Of a stretch of 25,766 nucleotides of DNA, positions 1 to 23,763 are shown one piece after another. How positions within the stretch are numbered: the first letter of the stretch is position 1; each line of letters opens with the position of its first letter. The notes below the pieces were generated by a model. The model did not search any database, was not told the origin of the DNA, and was given only the letters and a program-made list of their open reading frames with translations. The stretch is from positions 1-25,766 of IMG/VR virus record IMGVR_UViG_3300036766_000701. One strand, 5' to 3'. The position numbers were made by a program, and so were the translations under genes. The DNA comes from a virus.

Positions 1-39
1 CGTTGCCAGGTTGGCGGGAATACGGTTGATCGTCCCCAT
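1..39 (-). CDS. 5' end of a minus-strand gene, cut by the window edge
   Basis: Only the first 13 codons are inside the window (MGTINRIPANLAT). The start is supported by a good Shine-Dalgarno on the minus strand (AAGGAGAT at about 46-53) about seven bases before the ATG at 39. It follows the minus-strand gene ending at 122 and probably belongs to the same transcription unit. Nothing can be said of function from 13 residues. Confidence 0.5.
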   Translation of the reverse strand, partial: MGTINRIPANLAT

Positions 40-121
40 ATCTCTATCTCCTTCAAGGGCGCGGGCGGAGCTAAGGCAAGGCCCGCGCGGATGTCGCCAG
101 ATTCCGCTGGCACGGGCGCTG

Positions 122-409
122 TCACTTGCTCCCGGTCGCATTGCACGGGAGCGGGTTTGCCATCTCACGGGCGAAAATCCACTGAATCACGGTTTCCGTT
201 TCCAGACAGGCGAGGCACATATGGTTCGGGTCGCATCGCACGATGAAGTCCAGGGACCCACCCGTGCTCGGGTCCATGTGGCACCCCTTCACGGCTCCGG
301 CAGTGTGCGGAAAGCTCTTGCCGTACTGCTCCCGCGTTGACGGGCAGTTACATACAAGCCGCTTTGCCTTCCCCTTGCGCCTGACTCGCTTTGGATTCGC
401 GGCGGTCAG
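122..409 (-). CDS. Cys-rich small protein, apparent CTG start
   Basis: An open frame of 95 codons with no ATG, GTG or TTG between the upstream in-frame stop and codon 40. The most likely start is CTG at 409, which shares the four bases CTGA with the stop of the upstream gene (TGA at 406-408), the arrangement seen in translationally coupled phage genes. The N-terminus is basic (KRVRRKGKAKR). Seven cysteines follow, arranged CxC, then GCH, then C-x4-C-x2-C in RCDPNHMCLAC, which looks like a small zinc-binding fold. I do not recognise the family. If CTG is not used, GTG at 292 or ATG at 277 would give about 56 or 51 residues and lose the first Cys pair. Antisense frames here lack such a motif. 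Confidence 0.55.
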   Translation of the reverse strand: MTAANPKRVRRKGKAKRLVCNCPSTREQYGKSFPHTAGAVKGCHMDPSTGGSLDFIVRCDPNHMCLACLETETVIQWIFAREMANPLPCNATGSK

Positions 410-696
410 GCCAGGAGCTTTCCCTCTGCATCCCGCCAGGGGCCAGGCATGGTGTCCGCTTCGACTTCGGCATCAGGTCCGAGAACAGTAGCCGTGACGG
501 CCGGCTCATCCTGTATAACGCCCATGCGGGTCAGCGCGTTCCGAATCGCCTGCTCGTACTTCCGGGACATGACCAGCCCGCCCCGCTGTTCCTGTGCCAT
601 CGCCTTGGGACAGGCGGATGCGATCAGCTCCCGTGCCGCAGTCAAGTCGCCCCGCAGCACCATGCCCCGTTCCGAGTACGTTTCGATGGAGATCAT
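406..696 (-). CDS. Hypothetical protein, 96 aa
   Basis: Starts MISIETYSERGMVLRGDLTAA and ends EGKLLA. A strong Shine-Dalgarno (GGAGG, five bases before ATG) fixes the start at 696. The sequence reads as a small soluble alpha/beta protein with no signal peptide or membrane segment and no motif I recognise. Its stop overlaps the putative CTG start of the Cys-rich gene downstream by four bases, so the two are probably one operon. Function unknown. Confidence refers to it being a gene. Confidence 0.65.
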   Translation of the reverse strand: MISIETYSERGMVLRGDLTAARELIASACPKAMAQEQRGGLVMSRKYEQAIRNALTRMGVIQDEPAVTATVLGPDAEVEADTMPGPWRDAEGKLLA

Positions 697-801
697 GGTT
701 TCCTCCGACCCTCCGCAAAAAGCGTGCCTACCCTCGCCGTCCCACCCCTGAAATAAATCAACGTCGCCATTCCATTTCTTTCGATTGTCCTACCCTCCAT
801 C

Positions 802-825
802 GTGCGCCCCGTCGCCGAGGCGCAC
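802..825 (-). other. Hairpin after the 834-1220 gene
   Basis: A 7-bp perfect stem, GTGCGCC (802-808) with GGCGCAC (819-825), separated by 10 bases, lies just 3' of the minus-strand gene that stops at 834. No U-run follows on the minus strand, so it is not a standard intrinsic terminator. It could stabilise an mRNA end or bind a protein: its right arm runs into the small palindrome GCACTGTGC at 822-830. Confidence 0.4.
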
Positions 826-835
826 TGTGCAGGCT
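818..835. repeat. Repeat B, copy 1 (18 bp)
   Basis: AGGCGCACTGTGCAGGCT occurs here and again at 1520-1537, an exact 18-base match in the same orientation. It contains the odd-centred palindrome GCAC-T-GTGC. This copy overlaps the stop codon of the minus-strand gene 834-1220. Paired with repeat A (1232-1255), it brackets that gene. Confidence 0.75.
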
Positions 836-1220
836 AGGCCGACCGCTCCCGCGCTGTGCGCTCTTTCTCCAACGCGCGATCGCGGACCTCTCGGACTAGC
901 TGCGCAATCTCCCGGAGCGCAAAGGCGCTGTCGTCCAGGGTTGTAATGCGACCCGCGTGCGCCAGGAAATCGTCCAGGCTCCAAACATCCGAGCACGCGC
1001 CTTCAATCCCGGTTTCCCGGAGCAGGACCGTCCCGCCGTTCGCCGCGGTCGGCTGGCATACCCGGACCAGATAGTGCCGATTCCGCAGCAGCACGGGCTT
1101 GTCCCAGACACCTTCCTCCAGCAAACAGCGGATTGCCTGGCGCGCATGGCTTTCAAGTTCTTCCGCGATCTGGACCGCTCGCTCTGCCGCTTCCCGCGTG
1201 TGAAATCTGTATTTCCGCAT
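834..1220 (-). CDS. Hypothetical helical protein, 128 aa
   Basis: Begins MRKYRFHTREAAERAVQIAEE and ends in a charged helix (REVRDRALEKERTARERSA). Shine-Dalgarno GAGGTGAG lies just before the ATG at 1220, overlapping the stop of the 25-residue membrane peptide upstream, so the two are probably co-translated. Composition is Arg/Glu/Ala-rich with long predicted helices at both ends and a short beta-rich middle (VLLRNRHYLVRVCQP). I recognise no domain. The gene is flanked by repeats B and A, which occur side by side without the gene at 1520-1562. It may therefore have been gained or lost as a unit. Confidence 0.65.
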   Translation of the reverse strand: MRKYRFHTREAAERAVQIAEELESHARQAIRCLLEEGVWDKPVLLRNRHYLVRVCQPTAANGGTVLLRETGIEGACSDVWSLDDFLAHAGRITTLDDSAFALREIAQLVREVRDRALEKERTARERSA

Positions 1221-1229
1221 AGTCTCACC

Positions 1230-1307
1230 TCAGATATTGAGTTTGCCCGCAAGCCACGACAGCCCAAACAGCACCGCACAGCCGATCAGAAACCAGAGGC
1301 CGCTCAT
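1230..1307 (-). CDS. 25-aa single-pass membrane peptide
   Basis: A short frame starting MSGLWFLIGCAVLFGLSW and ending AGKLNI. It is almost entirely hydrophobic with one Lys near the C-terminus, as expected for a phage-encoded membrane micropeptide. The start at 1307 has only a weak purine stretch upstream. Its stop TGA is followed at once by the Shine-Dalgarno of the next gene (start 1220), and this tight spacing is the best support. The last codons are repeat A. Possible roles include inhibition of a host membrane enzyme or a minor lysis component, but no function can be assigned. Confidence 0.45.
   Translation of the reverse strand: MSGLWFLIGCAVLFGLSWLAGKLNI
1232..1255. repeat. Repeat A, copy 1 (24 bp)
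   Basis: An exact 24-base direct repeat (starts AGATATTGAG, ends GCAAGCC) recurring at 1539-1562. Here it encodes the C-terminal residues of the membrane peptide on the minus strand. At the other copy it is read in a different frame, so protein conservation alone does not explain it. Confidence 0.8.
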
Positions 1308-1516
1308 GTCCCGCTCACTTCCGTCAAAGAGTGGACTCCAAAAATCCCCCCTTGACACCATCAGAAATAGACGCTACAAAGCGAAACGCGCGACGGACCA
1401 AGCTGGACCCTGTATACAATCGTGTAGTAGTAGTTATGGCGTTAGCAGGTCCGCACACTCTGTCAGGTCCGCAGCTAGTACCCCAGCTATTCGTCGTGGC
1501 CCTTGAGGACACAGCG
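1308..1516. promoter_or_regulatory. Non-coding gap with tandem 10-bp repeats
   Basis: About 200 bases with no convincing gene. CAGGTCCGCA occurs twice (1446-1455 and 1464-1473), an 18-bp period that could be paired protein-binding sites. A palindrome TGTATACA lies at 1411-1418. On the plus strand TTGACA (1352-1357) is followed after 17 bases by TACAAA, a weak sigma70-like pair. On the minus strand this gap lies upstream of the membrane-peptide operon. Promoter assignment is tentative. Confidence 0.3.
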
Positions 1517-1612
1517 CTAAGGCGCACTGTGCAGGCTTAGATATTGAGTTTGCCCGCAAGCCCGGAAGGCGTTATCGCGGTCCGAGCGCAGCCAGTAGCG
1601 GGGCTCACTCAC
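1517..1612 (-). CDS. 31-aa chimeric mini-ORF (possibly truncated gene)
   Basis: GTG at 1612 overlaps the stop of the preceding minus-strand gene (GTGAGTGA arrangement). The first 17 codons (SEPRYWLRSDRDNAFR) read like a genuine small protein. The frame then enters repeat A and repeat B out of the frame used elsewhere and stops at 1517. The likeliest reading is a gene whose 3' part was replaced by the A-B junction. It may be translated but is probably a remnant. Confidence 0.35.
   Translation of the reverse strand: MSEPRYWLRSDRDNAFRACGQTQYLSLHSAP
1520..1537. repeat. Repeat B, copy 2 (18 bp)
   Basis: Exact copy of 818-835. Here it is separated from repeat A copy 2 by one base (1538), whereas in copy 1 a 396-bp stretch carrying a whole gene lies between them. 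Confidence 0.75.
1539..1562. repeat. Repeat A, copy 2 (24 bp)
   Basis: Exact copy of 1232-1255, directly adjoining repeat B copy 2. The order B then A on the plus strand is kept in both copies. Confidence 0.8.
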
Positions 1613-1790
1613 GAGCGTCGCCTTTGTAGCGCGGCGTGTTGTCGCGCAGCGGGACGGCCGGCGAGCCGTAACCTTCGGCGTTCTCGTTGACCAGTCTGTC
1701 GATCCGCGCTTGGGGTGTGGACTTGGCTTGCTCCGAAGCTTTGAGCTTGGCGCAGCGCGCCTCTAGCCGTCGTAGCGTCTCTTGATCCAT
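1605..1790 (-). CDS. Hypothetical coiled-coil-like protein, 61 aa
   Basis: Starts MDQETLRRLEARCAKLKASE. The N-terminal half is a charged amphipathic helix; the C-terminal half (NAEGYGSPAVPLRDNTPRYK) looks extended. The start at 1790 has a GAGGAG Shine-Dalgarno seven bases upstream. It is probably the first gene of a leftward unit whose promoter would be in the 1791-2145 gap. The stop overlaps the GTG of the following 31-residue frame. Function unknown. Confidence 0.55.
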   Translation of the reverse strand: MDQETLRRLEARCAKLKASEQAKSTPQARIDRLVNENAEGYGSPAVPLRDNTPRYKGDARE

Positions 1791-2145
1791 GGTCGCTCTC
1801 CTCTCGCTCCTTGGGCTATAATCCCCCCGAAACCTAATTGACTCCCCGCCAGCCCGTGAGCCTAGCGCTGTCGCGTGCCTGTCCTATCAGGTATAACGTT
1901 TTCCACTATTCGCCTGTTGTATCAAGAGCTTGTGACTTATCCGATTGGTACTACTATCTATTACCGCGCGGCACAAGTCAGGATAACTAGGGGACAGCCC
2001 GCCAGACCCCTCCCCCCGATTGCCCAGGCCCCCGCGGGGGAGATACCCACGTAAATCCATCCTCTCGCAATTTTTTGGGCGGCTTTTGTAACTTTTGATG
2101 GGCTCGGGCGTTAAACGAGCAGCGGTTCACCATCAGGAGGTTTCC
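1791..2145. promoter_or_regulatory. Divergent intergenic region
   Basis: About 355 bases between a leftward gene (start 1790) and a rightward gene (start 2146), with an AT-richer core (1885-1960) in a GC-rich genome. Possible plus-strand promoter: TTGTGA (1930-1935), 16-base spacer, TACTAT (1952-1957), four of six matches to each sigma70 box. CTTGTG (1929-1934) and CACAAG (1972-1977) are inverted around the putative -10. TATAAT occurs at 1817-1822 without a good -35. A perfect 12-bp palindrome of five C, GC, five G is at 2029-2040. No gene of credible length is seen. Confidence 0.4.
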
Positions 2146-2727
2146 ATGTTAACGATCTGTCCGGGATGCAAGAAGTTCTACGACGATTTCGACCGCTGGA
2201 CGTTTTGTCCGCACGAGTATTTTCTACCATGGCAATTTGCTGCGATTCAACCTGAGCCGGCGACTACGGTGTTGCAGGAGCGGGAGATGATCGGGCACTA
2301 CTGGGACGATCTGGCGAAGACGAGGGGGCCTGGATTCGAGTGCGTGTACGGGTCTCCAAGGCCGGAAATCGAAGCGTTGGTGCAGTTCGACTTGACATAT
2401 TTGGGTCAGGCCGGGATGAGGCGGCTATTCGACGCTGAGAAGTTGCTGCGCTCGCTGGACATCGGGTTTGACTGCGGGGCTGGCGGCGGAGTGCGTGATT
2501 GGGAGATGGACTGGTCACTTAAGGGGCCGGTGCGCCTCAGGCTTTACCGCTTCAAAGGGCGGCTATCATTCTGGCAGAGATTAGAGATACTGTTCACTGG
2601 GAACATCAACCCCAGAAAGGGGCTGCGACGTTGGCTTCAGATGAAGTGGCTGGAGTGGAAGAATCCATTCCGTGACGTACCGGCCGGGGTCTCGAACTTT
2701 GCGCTACCGCCACCGACCGCCGGCTAG
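2146..2727 (+). CDS. Hypothetical protein with Cys-rich N-terminus, 193 aa
   Basis: The start at 2146 is chosen over an in-frame ATG at 2095 because AGGAGG lies five bases upstream. The N-terminus (MLTICPGCKKFYDDFDRWTFCPHE) has CPGC followed at residue 21 by CPH, resembling a small zinc ribbon. The C-terminal 70 residues are rich in Trp, Arg and Lys (FWQRLEILFTGNINPRKGLRRWLQMKWLEW) and look amphipathic, possibly membrane- or nucleic-acid-binding. It stands alone on the plus strand between the divergent gap and an inverted-repeat structure that separates it from leftward genes. I do not recognise the family. Confidence 0.65.
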   Translation: MLTICPGCKKFYDDFDRWTFCPHEYFLPWQFAAIQPEPATTVLQEREMIGHYWDDLAKTRGPGFECVYGSPRPEIEALVQFDLTYLGQAGMRRLFDAEKLLRSLDIGFDCGAGGGVRDWEMDWSLKGPVRLRLYRFKGRLSFWQRLEILFTGNINPRKGLRRWLQMKWLEWKNPFRDVPAGVSNFALPPPTAG

Positions 2728-2810
2728 GCATGCTCTACACTGGAACACTACCCACGGGAGAGCCTAGGGGACTAACGCTTGCTCACCCCGAGAGACCCGT
2801 GGGGGATGCC
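2727..2810. terminator. Long inverted-repeat structure between convergent genes
   Basis: CCCACGGG (2751-2758) pairs perfectly with CCCGTGGG (2796-2803). Outside it GGCAT (2727-2731) pairs with ATGCC (2806-2810), and inside it GGGG (2767-2770) can pair with CCCC (2786-2789). The element fills the gap between a rightward gene ending at 2727 and a leftward gene ending at 2813, where a bidirectional terminator is expected. There is no U-run on either side, so a structured RNA or protein-bound element is an alternative. It has no T-arm or anticodon arm and is not a tRNA. Confidence 0.4.
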
Positions 2811-2812
2811 CG

Positions 2813-3037
2813 TCAGTTCGGCTTTGGTGTCGGCTCTGCAAACTTCGGGGGCGTCTTGAGCAGGTCGGCGACGATGGGGAGCAGATCTTCGATTTTCGGC
2901 GGGGTCTCGTGCGTCTGAACCAGGCACGCGACAGCGTAGCCAGCCAACATCAGCCCAACCACGATGTCCGCGACGCCGCCGGCGCGAAGGTGAATCGCAA
3001 GGTCGCGGCCGAAGTCTTCAAGCTCGGGGATGGTCAT
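2813..3037 (-). CDS. Small single-pass membrane protein, 74 aa
   Basis: Starts MTIPELEDFGRDLAIHLRAG. The ATG at 3037 is two bases beyond the stop of the upstream gene (3040-3042), suggesting translational coupling; an in-frame ATG at 3067 would overlap that gene. One hydrophobic segment (residues about 22-41, DIVVGLMLAGYAVACLV) is preceded by an amphipathic helix and followed by a Pro/Lys-rich tail. The topology could fit a small phage membrane protein such as a holin-like or exclusion protein. No family is recognised. Confidence 0.55.
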   Translation of the reverse strand: MTIPELEDFGRDLAIHLRAGGVADIVVGLMLAGYAVACLVQTHETPPKIEDLLPIVADLLKTPPKFAEPTPKPN

Positions 3038-3039
3038 GG

Positions 3040-3399
3040 TTAACGAACCCCATAGTAATGGAGCCACACGTCTTGCTCCAGGTAGCGCGCCATGAAAACG
3101 ACCTCTGCATCCGTGGCTTTCGCCTTGTCCATGTGAACCTCGAACGAATTGGTCGCGGCCAGGAGATTGCCGGGGTTGTTCAACTCGCTCGGGTTGTAGA
3201 GCATGATGATGGCCCGCAGCTCCTCCGGCTTCTCGACGGAGTGATCCACATAGTCCAGGGCCTCCACGAGCATATCACGTGCGGACCGTTTGAAGTAGTC
3301 AGCCCAGGTGCGCTTCTCCGGTGGAACGGGCACGGGTGGGGATTGCAGAGCGTTGGCCAGAGCATCGGCGCTAGCGGGCTTCACGGGTTCGTCGGACAT
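3040..3399 (-). CDS. Hypothetical protein, 119 aa
   Basis: Start at 3399 (MSDEPVKPASADALA) is set by GAGGAGG four bases upstream; a longer in-frame start at 3498 would overrun the next gene. The first 40 residues are Pro/Ala-rich and probably disordered. The rest (TWADYFKRSARDMLVEALDY onward) is helical, acidic and rich in aromatics, ending ARYLEQDVWLHYYGVR. No catalytic motif is visible. It lies in a leftward run of four small genes (3973 to 2813). Confidence 0.6.
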   Translation of the reverse strand: MSDEPVKPASADALANALQSPPVPVPPEKRTWADYFKRSARDMLVEALDYVDHSVEKPEELRAIIMLYNPSELNNPGNLLAATNSFEVHMDKAKATDAEVVFMARYLEQDVWLHYYGVR

Positions 3400-3431
3400 A
3401 CAGCCTCCTCGCAAGGGTGAACTTTTGAAAT

Positions 3432-3698
3432 CTAGGCCGGAAAGACTCCGGCTTCTCTGAGCGGACCATACTCGTCTAGCCAAACACGTCGCCTCCACAT
3501 CAAGTCGATCATTGGAGAAAAATAATCGTGATCGTTGGCGTGGTCTGGATGCGTGGTATTGAGTTCCTGGGCGATGAGATTCGCCATTTCTTCCACATCT
3601 TGTCGATGTCCGTGGGGGTCGCCATAAAGAAGTTTCGCTCCCCGATAGGCGACCCAGGCCGCAAAACGCGGACTCACATCACGCCAGTCTTGTGTCAT
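3432..3698 (-). CDS. Hypothetical protein, 88 aa
   Basis: Start MTQDWRDVSPRFAAW at 3698 overlaps the stop of the upstream gene as ATGA, typical of coupled phage genes. The middle contains a His/Asp-rich stretch (NTTHPDHANDHDYFSP) that could bind metal, but no known metalloenzyme signature is complete. The protein looks helical and soluble. No family recognised. Confidence 0.6.
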   Translation of the reverse strand: MTQDWRDVSPRFAAWVAYRGAKLLYGDPHGHRQDVEEMANLIAQELNTTHPDHANDHDYFSPMIDLMWRRRVWLDEYGPLREAGVFPA

Positions 3699-3973
3699 TG
3701 TTCCCACCTGATGAATCGGCACTCAATCAAAGCAAACCGCTCCCCACGCGGCCCCGTCACGATCGGCGAGATGAGCGGCCACGTAGGGCAAAGCCCGTGC
3801 AATTCGTCCACGAGGCGCCGCACCCCTTGGGTGTCATAAGCGATCGAAAGCCCGTCCACGAAAGGCGTGCCCTGGTCATCCGTGCGGACGACGGCGTACA
3901 TCGGGGAGGCGGGTTCGATCTTCTTCTCAAGGCTCATGCTGGGTGAAACGCTTGGACCGGAGGAAGGTTCCAT
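3695..3973 (-). CDS. Hypothetical protein, 92 aa
   Basis: ATG at 3973 (MEPSSGPSVSPS) or the internal ATG at 3937 (MSLEKKIEPASPMYAVV) could be the start. Neither has a close Shine-Dalgarno, though GGAGG occurs about 20 bases before the first. The body (YAVVRTDDQGTPFVDGLSIA) reads as a small alpha/beta domain. It is the first gene of the leftward cluster and its promoter should lie between 3974 and 4042. Function unknown. Confidence 0.55.
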   Translation of the reverse strand: MEPSSGPSVSPSMSLEKKIEPASPMYAVVRTDDQGTPFVDGLSIAYDTQGVRRLVDELHGLCPTWPLISPIVTGPRGERFALIECRFIRWEQ

Positions 3974-4042
3974 AGTTGACTTTCAGAAAATTATCCTCCA
4001 TAGGGTAATCCAAGCAGTTCCCTTCCAAGAGAGTCCCGGTGC
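3974..4042. promoter_or_regulatory. Divergent spacer before the virion operon
   Basis: Sixty-nine bases separate leftward genes from the rightward virion block. TTGACT at 3976-3981 is a five-of-six match to a sigma70 -35 box on the plus strand, but the sequence at the -10 distance (CATAGG, 3999-4004, 17-base spacer) is poor. A GATAAT on the minus strand has no matching -35. A promoter is expected here from gene layout, but the motif evidence is weak. Confidence 0.3.
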
Positions 4043-4537
4043 ATGGCCGCCGAAAGTCTGACCGCCACCCTTACGCTGACCTGGAGCGACGTGCAGGGCA
4101 CGCTGCGTTCTGCCGCGTATCCGATGTCGTTCGGCTCACAGACGCGGCTCAATGCCCCGCGGGAGTTCACGATCAACTCCAACTCGACGGTGGATCTGTG
4201 GGACCCGACCCTCTGGACAGGTTACCCGGAAGGCGCTTTCACGTTCATGGCCTTCGCCATCCAAGACATCGGGGTCGCGCAGGCCAGCGCGAGCATCACA
4301 CCCATCGAGATCGAGCAGACCTGCAATCTCGCCAGCGCGCAAGGGTTCATCGACACGATCCCCGCTGGCGGGTGGTTTGTAATTCCGGGCAACGCCAGCT
4401 ACCGCACGCCCGCAAATCAGAACGATCAGTTCACCAGTTCGACAGCCGGCCTCATCAACCGGGTGCGCGTGAGGAACAAGAGTGCGAGCGTCAACGTGAA
4501 ATTGACCATGTATCTGGCCGACGCCACGGCCCCGTAG
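4043..4537 (+). CDS. Putative beta-rich virion structural protein, 164 aa
   Basis: Starts MAAESLTATLTLTWSDVQG. The whole chain is Ser/Thr/Asn/Ala-rich with alternating hydrophobic residues and ends in RVRVRNKSASVNVKLTMYLA, typical of all-beta phage structural proteins such as head decoration or minor tail proteins. No transmembrane segment. It is the first gene of the plus-strand virion block, upstream of the terminase genes. The Shine-Dalgarno is weak (GAGAG about nine bases upstream). Specific role unknown. Confidence 0.55.
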   Translation: MAAESLTATLTLTWSDVQGTLRSAAYPMSFGSQTRLNAPREFTINSNSTVDLWDPTLWTGYPEGAFTFMAFAIQDIGVAQASASITPIEIEQTCNLASAQGFIDTIPAGGWFVIPGNASYRTPANQNDQFTSSTAGLINRVRVRNKSASVNVKLTMYLADATAP

Positions 4538-14460: not shown

Positions 14461-15129
14461 ATGGCCGCAGGAGACCTGACCCCGATCCAACTCACCATCG
14501 ACCAGGGGATCGTCGAGCCCTATGGGCTGCTTCAGCAGGTGCGTGGTTCGCCCTTCCGTTCCATGTTCGCCGATCAGGTCATGCCGACGAAAGCCGAGCT
14601 TGTCCGCATGGGCAAGGTGTTCAGCGTCAGCGGCGGCGTGGTGGCGAACGGAGTCATCCCCGTGGTCGATCAGCCCACGGTCGTCAACACCAACGGCCTC
14701 TACAACAACAACTCGGTGGGCAGCAATATCCACCTGCTGCTCCTCAAAATCTCGCTCTATGCCTGCTCAGGCACGCTGGGGTTGGGCCGCGGCATCGTGG
14801 CGGGCGTATCCGGTCCGCAAGCCGCCGCACCGTCGGCCGGGACCGGCGTGGTCGGGCCGAAGAACCACATGCCGACCTCGACCAACACGTCCAATGCGAT
14901 CATGTCCACCAACACGAACTCGACCTTGACGCCCACGCTGCTTCACCTGGGCGGCTTGGATACGCCGGCGGCTCCCGAGATCGGCGCGGGCATCGCCGTG
15001 GACGTGGAGGGACTGTTCATCGTTCCTCCCACGTACATTTTCACGTCGCATGTGGTCGCCCCGACTGGCACAACCGCGAAATTCCTGTTCACGTTCACGT
15101 ACGCCGAGTACCAGATGATTCCGCAGTAG
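14461..15129 (+). CDS. Triplicated structural protein, copy 1 (222 aa)
   Basis: First of three tandem paralogs. Common elements: MAAGDLTPIQ start, SPFRSMFADQVMP with K/R-AELVRMGKVFS, the STNTSNAI block at about residue 138, and the ending EIGAG...DVEGLFIVPP...PTGTTAKFLFTFTYAEYQMIPQ. The sequences are Ser/Thr/Gly/Val-rich and beta-like with no membrane segment. Shine-Dalgarno CTGGAGA lies nine bases upstream. Copies 1 and 2 keep the same ending (WAEYVVIPQ in copy 2), so they are closer to each other than to copy 3. Likely abundant virion protein such as a decoration or fibre-base component. No known family is recognised. Confidence 0.65.
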   Translation: MAAGDLTPIQLTIDQGIVEPYGLLQQVRGSPFRSMFADQVMPTKAELVRMGKVFSVSGGVVANGVIPVVDQPTVVNTNGLYNNNSVGSNIHLLLLKISLYACSGTLGLGRGIVAGVSGPQAAAPSAGTGVVGPKNHMPTSTNTSNAIMSTNTNSTLTPTLLHLGGLDTPAAPEIGAGIAVDVEGLFIVPPTYIFTSHVVAPTGTTAKFLFTFTYAEYQMIPQ

Positions 15130-15140
15130 GCGCCTGACCC

Positions 15141-15157
15141 GCGGCCTTGACCGCCGC
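15141..15157 (+). other. GCGGC/GCCGC intergenic hairpin
   Basis: GCGGC (15141-15145), seven-base loop, GCCGC (15153-15157), between copy 1 and copy 2 of the triplicated gene. Same stem as 14416 and 15870, no U-run. Confidence 0.5.
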
Positions 15158-15185
15158 TCAATGAAGTTTTGCGCAGGAGACTGTT

Positions 15186-15857
15186 ATGGCCGCAGGAGAC
15201 TTGACGCCAATTCAAGGCAAGGTCGATCAGGGCATCTTCACTCCATACGGAGGGCTGCAACAGCCCCGTTTCTCGCCTCTCCGTTCCTTGTATGTGGATC
15301 AGGTCATGCCATCCCGGATGGAGTTGGTGCGGATGGGCAAGACCTTCTCGGCGTCGGGCGGGGTGGTGGCGAATGCGATTCAATCGGTAGTGGACATGCC
15401 GACGACAGCCACGACGAACGGACTCTACAACAACAACAGCCAGGTCTCGAACGTCTGCCTCGTGCTCTTGAAAGTCTCGTGCTATGCGGCTTCCGGCACG
15501 CTGGGCCTCGGGCACGCGATTGTGGCGGGCACAGGATCGTCGCCCCAAAGCTCCGTGCCAGCCAAGGGTACGGGCGTAGTCGGCCCCAACAACAATCTCC
15601 CGTCATCGACCAATACGTCGAACGCGATCATGACAACCGGCGTGGCGCTGGGCGGCGCTCCGGCCTGGGACGCGCTTGGCGGAACGGACAATCCGGCGGC
15701 TGTCGAGATCGGCGCAGGCGTGGTGGCCGATGTGGAAGGACTCTACATCGTCCCACCCGGCTATATGTTCGGAACGCATGTGCTGTCTCCGACCGGGACG
15801 ACGCCCAAGTATCTGTTCACGTTCGTCTGGGCCGAGTACGTCGTCATTCCGCAGTAA
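15186..15857 (+). CDS. Triplicated structural protein, copy 2 (223 aa)
   Basis: Second tandem paralog. Begins MAAGDLTPIQGKVDQGIFTP with an AGGAGA Shine-Dalgarno. Conserved: SPLRSLYVDQVMPSRMELVR with MGKTFSASGGVVANA, STNTSNAIMTTG, and the ending FTFVWAEYVVIPQ. It shares exact 26-base and 22-base DNA blocks with copy 3 (15606-15631 with 16340-16365; and GGCGCTCCGGCCTGG context), which suggests recent exchange or strong constraint. Beta-rich, no signal peptide. Probably a hetero-oligomer partner or substitute for copies 1 and 3. Function otherwise unknown. Confidence 0.65.
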   Translation: MAAGDLTPIQGKVDQGIFTPYGGLQQPRFSPLRSLYVDQVMPSRMELVRMGKTFSASGGVVANAIQSVVDMPTTATTNGLYNNNSQVSNVCLVLLKVSCYAASGTLGLGHAIVAGTGSSPQSSVPAKGTGVVGPNNNLPSSTNTSNAIMTTGVALGGAPAWDALGGTDNPAAVEIGAGVVADVEGLYIVPPGYMFGTHVLSPTGTTPKYLFTFVWAEYVVIPQ

Positions 15858-15869
15858 GGCGCATGAACT

Positions 15870-15887
15870 GCGGCATTTGAAGGCCGC
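15870..15887 (+). other. GCGGC/GCCGC intergenic hairpin
   Basis: GCGGC (15870-15874), eight-base loop, GCCGC (15883-15887), between copy 2 and copy 3. Third use of the same stem, while the loop sequence differs. Confidence 0.5.
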
Positions 15888-15916
15888 GTAACCCAAATTC
15901 AAGATTGGAGGCCAAC

Positions 15917-16591
15917 ATGGCCGCAGGCGATCTTACCCCCATCCAGGGGATCGTTGATGTTGGAACCGTGCAACAATACGGGTCCAATCAGACTCTCCGT
16001 TTGTCTCCGTTCCGCTCCGCCTTCGTGGATCAAGTGCTCCCGTCACGTGCGGAACTGGTGCGGATGGGCAAGGTGTTCTCGGCCAACCTGGGCACCGGCG
16101 CGGCTGCCACCGGCACCCAATCGGTGGCGCAGATGCCGACCACCGCAACCATCATGGCGCTCTGGAACGGTAATACCGTCGCCAGCAACATCCATCTCGT
16201 GATCCTGAAGGTGTCGGCGTGGGTGTTCGCGGGCACGATGGGGCTGGGCAAGTCCATGATCTGCGGAACCTCCACGGCTTCCCAGACCGTAGTGACCAAG
16301 GGCACGGGTGCGGTGGGGCCGACCAACAACCTGCTGACCTCGACCAATACGTCGAACGCGATCATCGGCCAGGCCACTGTGCTGGGCGGCGCTCCGGCCT
16401 GGATCGTGGTGGCGGGCGCGGACAGCCCTTCAGCGGTCGAAATCGGGGCTTCGATGGCGGCCGATGTCGAGGGCCTGTTCATCGTGCCTCCGGGCTTCGC
16501 CTTCGGGATGCACGTCCTCGGTGGCGCCGGCACGGCCCCCCTGTACCTGGGGTCGGTCTGCTGGGCCGAATTGGCGCTGACCGCGCAATAG
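15917..16591 (+). CDS. Triplicated structural protein, copy 3 (224 aa)
   Basis: Start MAAGDLTPIQGIVDVGTVQQ at 15917 has TTGGAGG six bases upstream; an in-frame ATG 12 bases earlier is unlikely because it would overlap the Shine-Dalgarno. Keeps SPFRSAFVDQVLPSRAELVR, MGKVFS, STNTSNAI, VEIGAS...DVEGLFIVPPGFAFGMHV. It diverges at the C-terminus (CWAELALTAQ rather than WAEY..IPQ) and lacks the PTGTT strand, so it may have a different partner or exposed surface. Beta-rich virion protein of unknown name. Confidence 0.65.
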   Translation: MAAGDLTPIQGIVDVGTVQQYGSNQTLRLSPFRSAFVDQVLPSRAELVRMGKVFSANLGTGAAATGTQSVAQMPTTATIMALWNGNTVASNIHLVILKVSAWVFAGTMGLGKSMICGTSTASQTVVTKGTGAVGPTNNLLTSTNTSNAIIGQATVLGGAPAWIVVAGADSPSAVEIGASMAADVEGLFIVPPGFAFGMHVLGGAGTAPLYLGSVCWAELALTAQ

Positions 16592-20509: not shown

Positions 20510-22600
20510 ATGTCCGTCATTCGCATCCAGGGCTTCAAGGGCACGGCCCCGCGCGTAGGCGTGCGTCTCTTGGGAGAATCCAATGCCCAGGTGGCTCTGA
20601 ACGCCAAGCTATTCAGCAAGGAAATCCGCGGCTGGCGCGCATCCTCGACTGTCCTTACTCCGAATAACGGATCGGCCACCCAGGCGATCTACCGCTATGT
20701 CGATGCGGGAAATTCCTACTGGCTTGATTGGAGCACGGTCGTCAACGTGGCCCGTGTACCGGTCACAGGGGATGCGAAGAACCGCATCTTCTTCACCGGG
20801 GCGACGCTAGGCACTTCGTCATCCACCGTCACCATGACGATCGCCAGCCCATGCGTCGTGTCCTGGGCCACTCACGGACTTTCGCCTGGGACGTTGTTCA
20901 AGTTCTCCACGACCGGAGCACTACCGACGGGGCTCACCGCGGGAGTGGTCTATATGGTGCTGGCGGCGAGCATAGCCGCTGGGACATTCCAAATCGGTAT
21001 TCCAGGCGTCGGTACGCCTATCAATACGAGCGGCAGCCAGTCCGGGACGCACATAGCTACCATCGTCGGGATGCCGAAAAAGGCCGGCAACGACATCATC
21101 AATGCGAGTGGTACGCCTGCGTTCTGGAACATGGGCGTGCAGAATCCGATGTTTGCCCCGGCGAGCGCGGTCAAAGCATCTGGAGCGAGTTCCGGTACCG
21201 CGCGAGCCACGTCTTACGTCATCACCCACGTTACGGCCTGGGGAGAAGAATCTGGTCCGAGCCCGCCCCTTGTCGCCACATTGTTCGACAGCGACACGAT
21301 CACTGTCACGCGCGCTGCGCAGAGCCCTCCTTCCGGCTACAACATCGTGGCCTGGAACGTGTACCGCACCGTCACAGGGGCCAGCGGAGTCGCCACGTAC
21401 TACTACATCGGCCAGCAAGCGACCTATGCCACGACGACGTTCTCCGATGCCGTGCCAGACGCTACGCTGGTCCTAAACGGATCGTTCGCATCGCCGAACA
21501 CGCCCACCTTTGCGGAGCCCCCGAGCGACCTGACTGGCCTGACCACCATGCCGAACGGAATGCTGGCGGGTTTCAGCCCCACGTTCAAGCAGGTCTGTTT
21601 CTCCGAGCCCTATTTCCCCTACGCCTGGCCGGTGAACTACCGCCGCGGGCTGATTTATGACCCCGTAGCGTGTGGGGCCAGCGGCAATATGCTGGTCGTG
21701 GCGACGACGGGGAAACCGACCGTCTTCGTCGGGAATACGCCGGCGCAAATGTCGGGCGACACGCTGGACGCCCTGCAAGCCTGTCTGAGCGCCCGAAGCC
21801 TCGCGGAGACGCCATTCGGAGTTGTGTGGGCCTCCCCCGACGGGCTCTACATGGTGAGCCCAGACGGCTCGCGCCAGATCATCACGCGCTCTCTCTACGA
21901 CAAGCAACTCTGGCAGAGCCTCGTGCCGGGCGGGATGATCGCCACCGTGTACGACGGGCGGTACTACGCATTTACGCCTGGACTCAACCGGGTTTTGGTG
22001 CTCGACCCGAACGAGCCGGACGATGCGCTGACGTTCCTCGACGTAGCTCCGAGCGCGTTGTTCAGCGACTTCAACGCCGACGGGCTCTACATGGTGCAAA
22101 CCGGTGTCATCATCCAGTGGGATGTGAGCAGCGCAAGCTACTTGACGGCGACGTGGCGCGGCAAGGTCTTCACGGACGAAAAGCCGAACAACAAGGGTTG
22201 GGGCCGTATCCTGTTCAACCTCAACAACCCAACGGTTCAAGCCGGGCAAGTGTCTGACCTTGTCGCGTATGCCGCGAACCGGGCACTGCTGGCGGCTCTT
22301 GCAGCGACGAATGCGGTCGGGGCCAATGGCGGACCTTGCTTCGGCTCGCATCCGTTTGGAGAGCACGCCTTTGCGGCGGACGACTTCTTTCAAGTCCCGG
22401 CCGATATTGGTGCGAGCATCACGTTCAATCTGTACGGAGACTCCCAATTTCGCGGGACTGCTACCGTGACGAACCAACGTCCGTTCCGTCTTCCCGGCGG
22501 TTACACGGCCCAGGAATGGGAACTTGAGTCGGTCGCGCAGTGCAACGTCGAAGAACTCGCCATCGCCAACGACATGAGCGAACTTCAGAAGGTGAACTAG
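20510..22600 (+). CDS. Tail nozzle-like protein (beta-propeller), 696 aa
   Basis: N-terminus IRIQGFKGTAPRVGVRLLGE followed by ALNAKLFSKEIRGWR is the signature start of the large tail protein of short-tailed phages (T7 gp12-like nozzle group). Inside are repeated propeller strands, for example PDGLYMVSPDGSRQIITRS at about residue 444 and ADGLYMVQTGVIIQWD at about 524; the same 19 bases (starting CGACGGGCTC) underlie both GLYM strands. A Thr/Ser-rich insertion at about 100-200 (TGATLGTSSSTVTMTIASP) may be an added domain. Start at 20510 has AGAGG nearby. It closes the tail tip and binds fibres. Confidence 0.75.
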   Translation: MSVIRIQGFKGTAPRVGVRLLGESNAQVALNAKLFSKEIRGWRASSTVLTPNNGSATQAIYRYVDAGNSYWLDWSTVVNVARVPVTGDAKNRIFFTGATLGTSSSTVTMTIASPCVVSWATHGLSPGTLFKFSTTGALPTGLTAGVVYMVLAASIAAGTFQIGIPGVGTPINTSGSQSGTHIATIVGMPKKAGNDIINASGTPAFWNMGVQNPMFAPASAVKASGASSGTARATSYVITHVTAWGEESGPSPPLVATLFDSDTITVTRAAQSPPSGYNIVAWNVYRTVTGASGVATYYYIGQQATYATTTFSDAVPDATLVLNGSFASPNTPTFAEPPSDLTGLTTMPNGMLAGFSPTFKQVCFSEPYFPYAWPVNYRRGLIYDPVACGASGNMLVVATTGKPTVFVGNTPAQMSGDTLDALQACLSARSLAETPFGVVWASPDGLYMVSPDGSRQIITRSLYDKQLWQSLVPGGMIATVYDGRYYAFTPGLNRVLVLDPNEPDDALTFLDVAPSALFSDFNADGLYMVQTGVIIQWDVSSASYLTATWRGKVFTDEKPNNKGWGRILFNLNNPTVQAGQVSDLVAYAANRALLAALAATNAVGANGGPCFGSHPFGEHAFAADDFFQVPADIGASITFNLYGDSQFRGTATVTNQRPFRLPGGYTAQEWELESVAQCNVEELAIANDMSELQKVN

Positions 22601-23298: not shown

Positions 23299-23763
23299 AT
23301 GGAATCCACCGCCAGAAACGTCGAGCCTTTCCCTGCGGCCATCGTAATTCAGGAACGGTACGCCGATGTGGCGGCGGAAGGACTGGCGTTGTTCCGGGCG
23401 CACGGAAAGGAGATCGGCTTCGATACCCTGCCGCGGCGGTGGCAGCCAGCACTCAACCTCTACCGCGACCTTGAGCAGGCTGGGCAAGTGGTCTGGCTAT
23501 CGGTACGGGACGATAGCCTCGAACTGATCGGCTACGCCCTGCTTCTATTCGGGCCAAGTACTCTCTTTTCAGGTGCTGTGGCGGCAACCGTCGAGTGGAT
23601 TTACATTCGCCCCGAGCACAGAGAGGTGGCGCTTCTGCGCGAACTGTGGCAGGAAATCGACAAGGCCGTGAAAGCGCAGGGGGCGGTCAGCCTCAACTGG
23701 TCCGTCTGGAAACGCAAGGGCGGGAAGCGCCCTAGCCAAGTCACTCACTGGCGCTTCTTCTAG
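23299..23763 (+). CDS. GNAT-like N-acetyltransferase, 154 aa
   Basis: The GNAT fold is suggested by the strand-loop region VVWLSVRDDSLELIGYALLL followed by VEWIYIRPEHREVALLRELW, where the R/Q-x-x-G/A acetyl-CoA loop is expected (here RPEHREVALLRELW) and a C-terminal strand (VSLNWSVWKRK). The N-terminal helix contains ALFRAHGKEIGFDTLPRRWQ. Length fits small phage members. It lies inside the tail/ejection block, so it may modify a virion or early host target. The acetyl-CoA loop is degenerate, so confidence is moderate. Confidence 0.6.
   Translation: MESTARNVEPFPAAIVIQERYADVAAEGLALFRAHGKEIGFDTLPRRWQPALNLYRDLEQAGQVVWLSVRDDSLELIGYALLLFGPSTLFSGAVAATVEWIYIRPEHREVALLRELWQEIDKAVKAQGAVSLNWSVWKRKGGKRPSQVTHWRFF

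Follow-up and report, generated by a model that had tools for sequence, protein, structure and literature searches.

Patchworks of short copied segments are described as products of the eukaryotic polymerase theta. These templated insertions join several small nearby segments, with stray bases between them; according to the excerpts of PMC12426944 used here, they are generally shorter than 25 bp, and occasionally comprise more than 20 consecutive copied bases. Template switching related to hairpins has been described in yeast (PMC5677150, in extract). A quite different arrangement is that of par of pAD1, where two direct repeats are transcribed in opposite directions (PMC7472228, in extract).

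We consider here a phage locus in the virus record IMGVR_UViG_3300036766_000701, analysed over the whole stretch of 25,766 bases (henceforth the window). Two repeats, termed B and A, border a gene in this locus and are found again side by side in a 43-bp patch. The patch resembles filler DNA, the patchwork type of templated insertion, in its short fused copies of nearby sequence, its stray base, its sharp edges and its short edge repeat. It departs from the polymerase theta cases, at least as the excerpts of PMC12426944 present them, in that the DNA is that of a phage, that the distances are of about 300–700 bp, that the patch exceeds the usual length, and that the event is read from one sequence. 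It also recalls replication slippage and quasi-palindrome template switching, with a strong hairpin at a donor site and local copying errors, while it would ask for three jumps on the same strand, where those processes need one slip or one fold-back correction. Our search of the literature found no report of patchwork insertions of this type in a phage, which does not prove that there is none.

Two gene borders and their fused copy

Around the patch the genes are transcribed leftward, an ORF for a hydrophobic peptide coming first, followed by an ORF of 128 codons (Table 1). The product of the latter has no above-cut-off family match in PHROGs, Pfam, PADLOC or NCBIfam. Elsewhere in the window, the 154-aa ORF at 23299–23763 displays a weak, below-cut-off acetyltransferase resemblance (NCBIfam, E 0.006). 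The codon-usage score of the peptide ORF is 0.171 for its 25-aa version, against 0.016 for the 43-aa version.

Table 1. Coordinates of the features discussed in the text (positions in the window)
Feature	Position	Strand	Remark
Hairpin 3' of the leftward 128-aa gene, 50 nt	789-838	minus	Terminator-like, without U-tract
Repeat B, probable donor copy	818-835	+	Right arm of the 789-838 hairpin; 2 nt fall within the stop codon of the 128-aa ORF
128-aa ORF	834-1220	minus	Shine-Dalgarno-like GAGGTG directly before ATG
Hydrophobic peptide ORF, 25 aa, MSGLWFLIGCAVLFGLSWLAGKLNI	1230-1307	minus	43 aa with start at 1361
Repeat A, probable donor copy	1232-1255	+	11 bp upstream of the 128-aa start codon
Non-coding stretch containing the patch	1308-1604		Left limit presumes the 25-aa start
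Left direct repeat AAGGCG	1519-1524	+	Overlaps the patch edge
Fused copy B(18)-T-A(24), probably derived patch	1520-1562	+	Exact repeats
Right direct repeat AAGGCG	1566-1571	+	Just outside the patch

Repeat B (AGGCGCACTGTGCAGGCT) is identical at 18 of 18 positions between its place beside the gene and 1520–1537. Repeat A (AGATATTGAGTTTGCCCGCAAGCC) is identical at 24 of 24 positions between its place upstream of the gene and 1539–1562; the match, when extended from 1229/1536, amounts to 26 of 27. In the fused copy T1538 alone separates the two, making 43 bp in all. The sequence-only reading of this DNA had claimed that B and A border the gene at 834–1220 and recur one base apart at 1520–1562, and this is exact to the base. 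That the repeats flank the gene holds in so far as they lie on both sides of it; the word is too clean for its borders, B sharing two bases of the stop codon and A belonging to the terminal part of the ORF upstream.

The pattern is real and it is not random. Allowing up to three mismatches, B and A have no copy in the window beyond their two places each. None of 100 dinucleotide shuffles held two matches to B or two matches to A, and block-shuffling the window 100 times never produced a fused pair of local exact repeats (each of at least 12 bp, with a sum of at least 26). The odd palindrome GCACTGTGC, already pointed out within B, is indeed present in both copies; as it reaches at least two matches in 4 of 100 shuffles, it is unremarkable alone.

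A list of exact local repeats in the window (13 bp or more) holds further direct repeats that exceed 15 bp, and these fall within ORFs of the structural-gene region, which is read rightward. Several link paralogues at 14461–16591, where three tandem ORFs of about 222–228 aa are 62–72% alike in DNA over their first 125 nt. The 696-aa ORF contains an in-phase 20-bp direct repeat (21837–21856 and 22077–22096), so that DGLYMV is encoded twice. Closer to the patch, an inverted exact match of 16 bp, CGCTGTCGCGTGCCTG, joins the non-coding gap 1791–2142 to a leftward 84-aa ORF (1866–1881 against 2921–2936; a shuffle gives 0.03 such matches on average within 3 kb). It is possibly another short local copy.

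The patch lies between the peptide gene and a leftward 61-aa ORF (1605–1790). It had been placed inside a chimeric frame, a view that the codon usage does not sustain: scores are negative in all six frames of 1362–1604, and because of this the frames that cross the fused site probably do not represent genes. Donor order and strand are kept in the patch, while the 396 bp that comprise the 128-aa gene are skipped; B is copied 702 bp and A 307 bp away from the other place. Compared with an exact B–A join a single base differs, the two pieces having a 2-bp CT/AG in common at the inner join, and identity with the donors is 42 of 43 bp, with a sharp drop at both ends. These features uphold the impression that the second site looks like the first with its gene removed. 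The C-to-T change at the junction turns the stop codon of the peptide gene from TGA into TAA, and, read on the minus strand, the patch leads from the last codons of the peptide gene directly into the beginning of the hairpin.

Which place is the donor

The alternative offered by the sequence-only reading, that the fused site is the ancestor into which the gene was inserted, is made unlikely by comparison of the surroundings. An ancestral fused site should have outer flanks that match those at 818 and 1232. They do not: over 30 bp the identity is 0.33 to the left of B and 0.37 to the right of A, and flank identities altogether range from 0.20 to 0.37, which is the chance level, an ungapped comparison being in agreement. 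Beyond these 43 bp nothing relates one site to the other, and the patch therefore does not represent the locus in an empty state.

The two repeats, moreover, have a context at the gene borders that is not that of the patch. The 789–838 hairpin has a fold of −35.9 kcal/mol (z −7.49), equalled by none of 200 shuffles. When B is folded on the minus strand with its own 30-nt flank, only 0.07% of 3000 random flanks are as stable at 818, against 5.4% at 1520. Repeat A at 1232–1255 encodes, on the minus strand, LAGKLNI, the C-terminus of the membrane peptide, and adjoins GAGGTG, the Shine-Dalgarno-like sequence ahead of the 128-aa ORF; at 1539 it is non-coding. Because flanks, B hairpin and A coding all favour it, we take 818 and 1232 as the most likely donors and 1520–1562 as the copy. 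In this one genome the fused site is thus most likely derived, not ancestral, its patch having probably been copied over some 300–700 bp.

The same facts bear on a related proposal, in which the fused site would be an ancestral gene junction or an att-like recombination site, with the 128-aa gene inserted into one copy. The B–A order is compatible with the insertion of a gene, the ends of the inserted stretch have CT/AG in common, and the length speaks for it, as some attachment sites are of about 43 bp. Against this stand the flanks, since an empty site should match the occupied one, and the fact that the larger hairpin around B exists at 818 only, as does the coding of A at 1232. The scanned ORF products from 122–3973 gave no match to a recombinase or transposase family, and a scan of viral contigs found no further exact copy of A or of B. 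We give this proposal very little chance.

A scar of replication, or a selected element?

The reading towards which we lean, and which we consider somewhat probable, is that 1520–1562 is a recent patchwork templated insertion, a scar left by replication. A strand growing in the non-coding gap would have slipped back by about 700 bp (about 702) to B, where the strong hairpin may have been a pause site, and 18 nt would have been copied. It would then have jumped forward by about 396 bp, across the 128-aa gene, to A, where another 24 nt would have been copied, before returning near AAGGCG. Jumps of the polymerase, recency and absence of function are all what we infer from the present state of the DNA.

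Several features expected from such an event are present. The copies of nearby sequence are short and exact (18/18 and 24/24 bp), and the edges are sharp, with unrelated flanks. Possible microhomology at the joins amounts to AAGGCG at both edges and the 2-bp overlap at the inner join. As for AAGGCG, a shared 6-mer equally near both edges would be met at about 3.0% of window positions. Donor polarity, the AAGGCG edges, the abrupt limits of identity and the existence elsewhere of repeats with unrelated flanks may, as far as letters can tell, be counted for templated insertion. Counted against it are the failure to find a relative that lacks the patch, by which the event and its direction might be shown, the need for three jumps, the weakness of an edge repeat found by chance in 3% of cases, and the fact that the known cases of the literature are eukaryotic, while this one belongs to a phage. 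At the first back-jump no microhomology beyond AGGCG is evident. Finally, the stop codon retained at the junction and the modest hairpin of the minus strand would be explained by function too.

This last point leads to a rather unlikely alternative, in which the patch would have been selected for a role at 3' ends, a stop codon and a hairpin arm having been moved behind the leftward 61-aa gene to act as a 3' stabilizer or as part of a terminator. In the minus sense there is a hairpin at both copies of B, and the stretch 1490–1604 folds modestly (z −2.16). The hairpin of the fused site is matched by 5.4% of random flanks and by 2.2% of shuffles of its own flank; its significance is marginal. 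Neither hairpin has a U-tract, and both are missing from the list of the terminator scan. The partner arm at 1520 is also DNA different from the arm at 818, and the copying of A is left without a reason.

Could the patch be antisense to its donors?

Because both copies are direct repeats, transcripts that read them in opposite directions are complementary. A plus-strand RNA spanning 1520–1562 might thus pair with the leftward mRNA at two sites, A' and B', and repress the 128-aa gene, the peptide gene or both. A' adjoins the Shine-Dalgarno-like sequence that precedes the 128-aa ORF and takes in the last part of the peptide ORF, and B' is the 3' end of the 128-aa gene. We would call such a role improbable, and yet part of the evidence is consistent with it. 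Cofolding predicts strong pairing at A (−69.8, compared with −21.3 and −14.0 when each folds alone), the changed base yields a G–U pair, and the target site has the 25-aa hydrophobic peptide ORF. There is also the precedent of par of pAD1, with its two direct repeats and opposite reading directions (PMC7472228, in extract).

The likeness with par, an Fst type I toxin–antitoxin system, resides in potentially complementary direct repeats close to a ribosome-binding site and to an ORF for a small hydrophobic peptide. The repeats are present here and A adjoins a Shine-Dalgarno-like stretch, whereas the plus-strand transcript is hypothetical. The likeness stops at the convergent promoters and shared bidirectional terminator of par: the scan finds neither in our locus, and the transcripts would diverge rather than converge. 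The peptide, set against Fst, is a putative ORF, and toxicity is no part of the comparison.

Other observations weigh on the same side. Sigma-70-like promoters number zero in positions 1–4100 of both strands where 0.9 would be expected, the consensus being that of sigma-70 only, and the scan gives no terminator-like site near the patch. No Rfam family matches positions 1–4200, bar one chance-level match at 4076. At the B site the cofold retains the native hairpins, so that pairing is not favoured there. Last, the same complementarity arises from any duplication that is read in opposite directions.

Two further candidates were rejected. A promoter-like TTGACA-17-TACAAA on the plus strand (1352–1380), picked out by eye, fails the rule of the promoter scan and was given no weight; and an intron, or the retro-copy of a spliced RNA, was set aside with the Rfam result just given.

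Relatives and the question of an artefact

By its structural genes this phage appears to be distant from sequenced phages, its terminase being at most about 35% and its capsid at most about 39% identical to phage records, among the matches listed. A terminase scan with a single sequence found nothing; an alignment of seven terminase sequences led to 80 loci, at most 37% identical, and an alignment of five capsid sequences to 80 loci in viral contigs, at most 50% identical. For the 128-aa protein no relative was found in viral contigs, in genome contigs or in phages (the latter with E up to 10), a weak plasmid match at E 0.2 having been disregarded. The DNA of 1–4000 has no match in phages, and none of the 10 early-region proteins (122–3973) matches any of 169 loci used for comparison (E up to 0.1). 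No relative carrying the early region, with or without the patch, was found, which is weak evidence, as very near records possibly lie outside the search sets.

It might be asked whether the fused stretch arose by chimeric joining, as an artefact of assembly or amplification in a metagenome contig. We have a single virus record, the patch is at most 1.6 kb from its end, and an independent copy was not found. However, the sequence on either side of the patch is unique, so that an artefact would require two chimeric joins separated by 43 bp, and a haplotype bubble is excluded because the flanks differ. An artefact is in our opinion quite improbable.

How common are such patterns?

The comparison set of 169 loci (1,911,076 bases), made of 160 viral-contig loci and nine phage-record stretches, serves for base rates only. 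It comprises 61 direct repeats that measure 18 bp or more and lie no further than 2 kb apart, and 25 of these, spread over 17 of the loci, have unrelated flanks; because of this, short local copies are not rare. In one locus (L101) a 49-bp exact direct repeat is found at 1574 and 1685, 111 bp apart, with unrelated flanks. Fused pairs in a loose sense are not rare either, since order-keeping pairs (each repeat of at least 12 bp, sum of at least 26, skip of at least 30 bp) occur in 29 of the 169 loci. With both repeats of at least 16 bp and a sum of at least 36, in either order, the count is five; with both of at least 18 bp and a sum of at least 40, it is two.

Four of the loci with fused pairs (L136, L149, L161 and L099) were checked letter by letter, the others (L014, L110, L138, L141 and the rest) by coordinates. 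The first three are repetitive stretches, and L099 is a composite with the perfect palindrome AGTTTGTACGTACAAACT. In this other viral contig two elements, at 1290–1308 and 2017–2031, directly adjoin at a third place, 3435–3468. The pieces look operator- and promoter-like. If so, fused elements can be regulatory, which argues against calling every such case a scar.

What the patch may tell about phage genomes

If the patch is transcribed, it would show a single-step route to an antisense regulator. One would then witness a regulatory RNA at birth, a slip of replication having fused two borders of a gene into a new phage antisense RNA that could pair beside the ribosome-binding site of that gene and with its 3' end; we see but a faint chance of this. 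If the patch is the scar of replication that we favour, it would offer a clean case from nature of a multi-jump templated insertion in phage DNA, and it would caution against taking such fused repeats for empty insertion sites.
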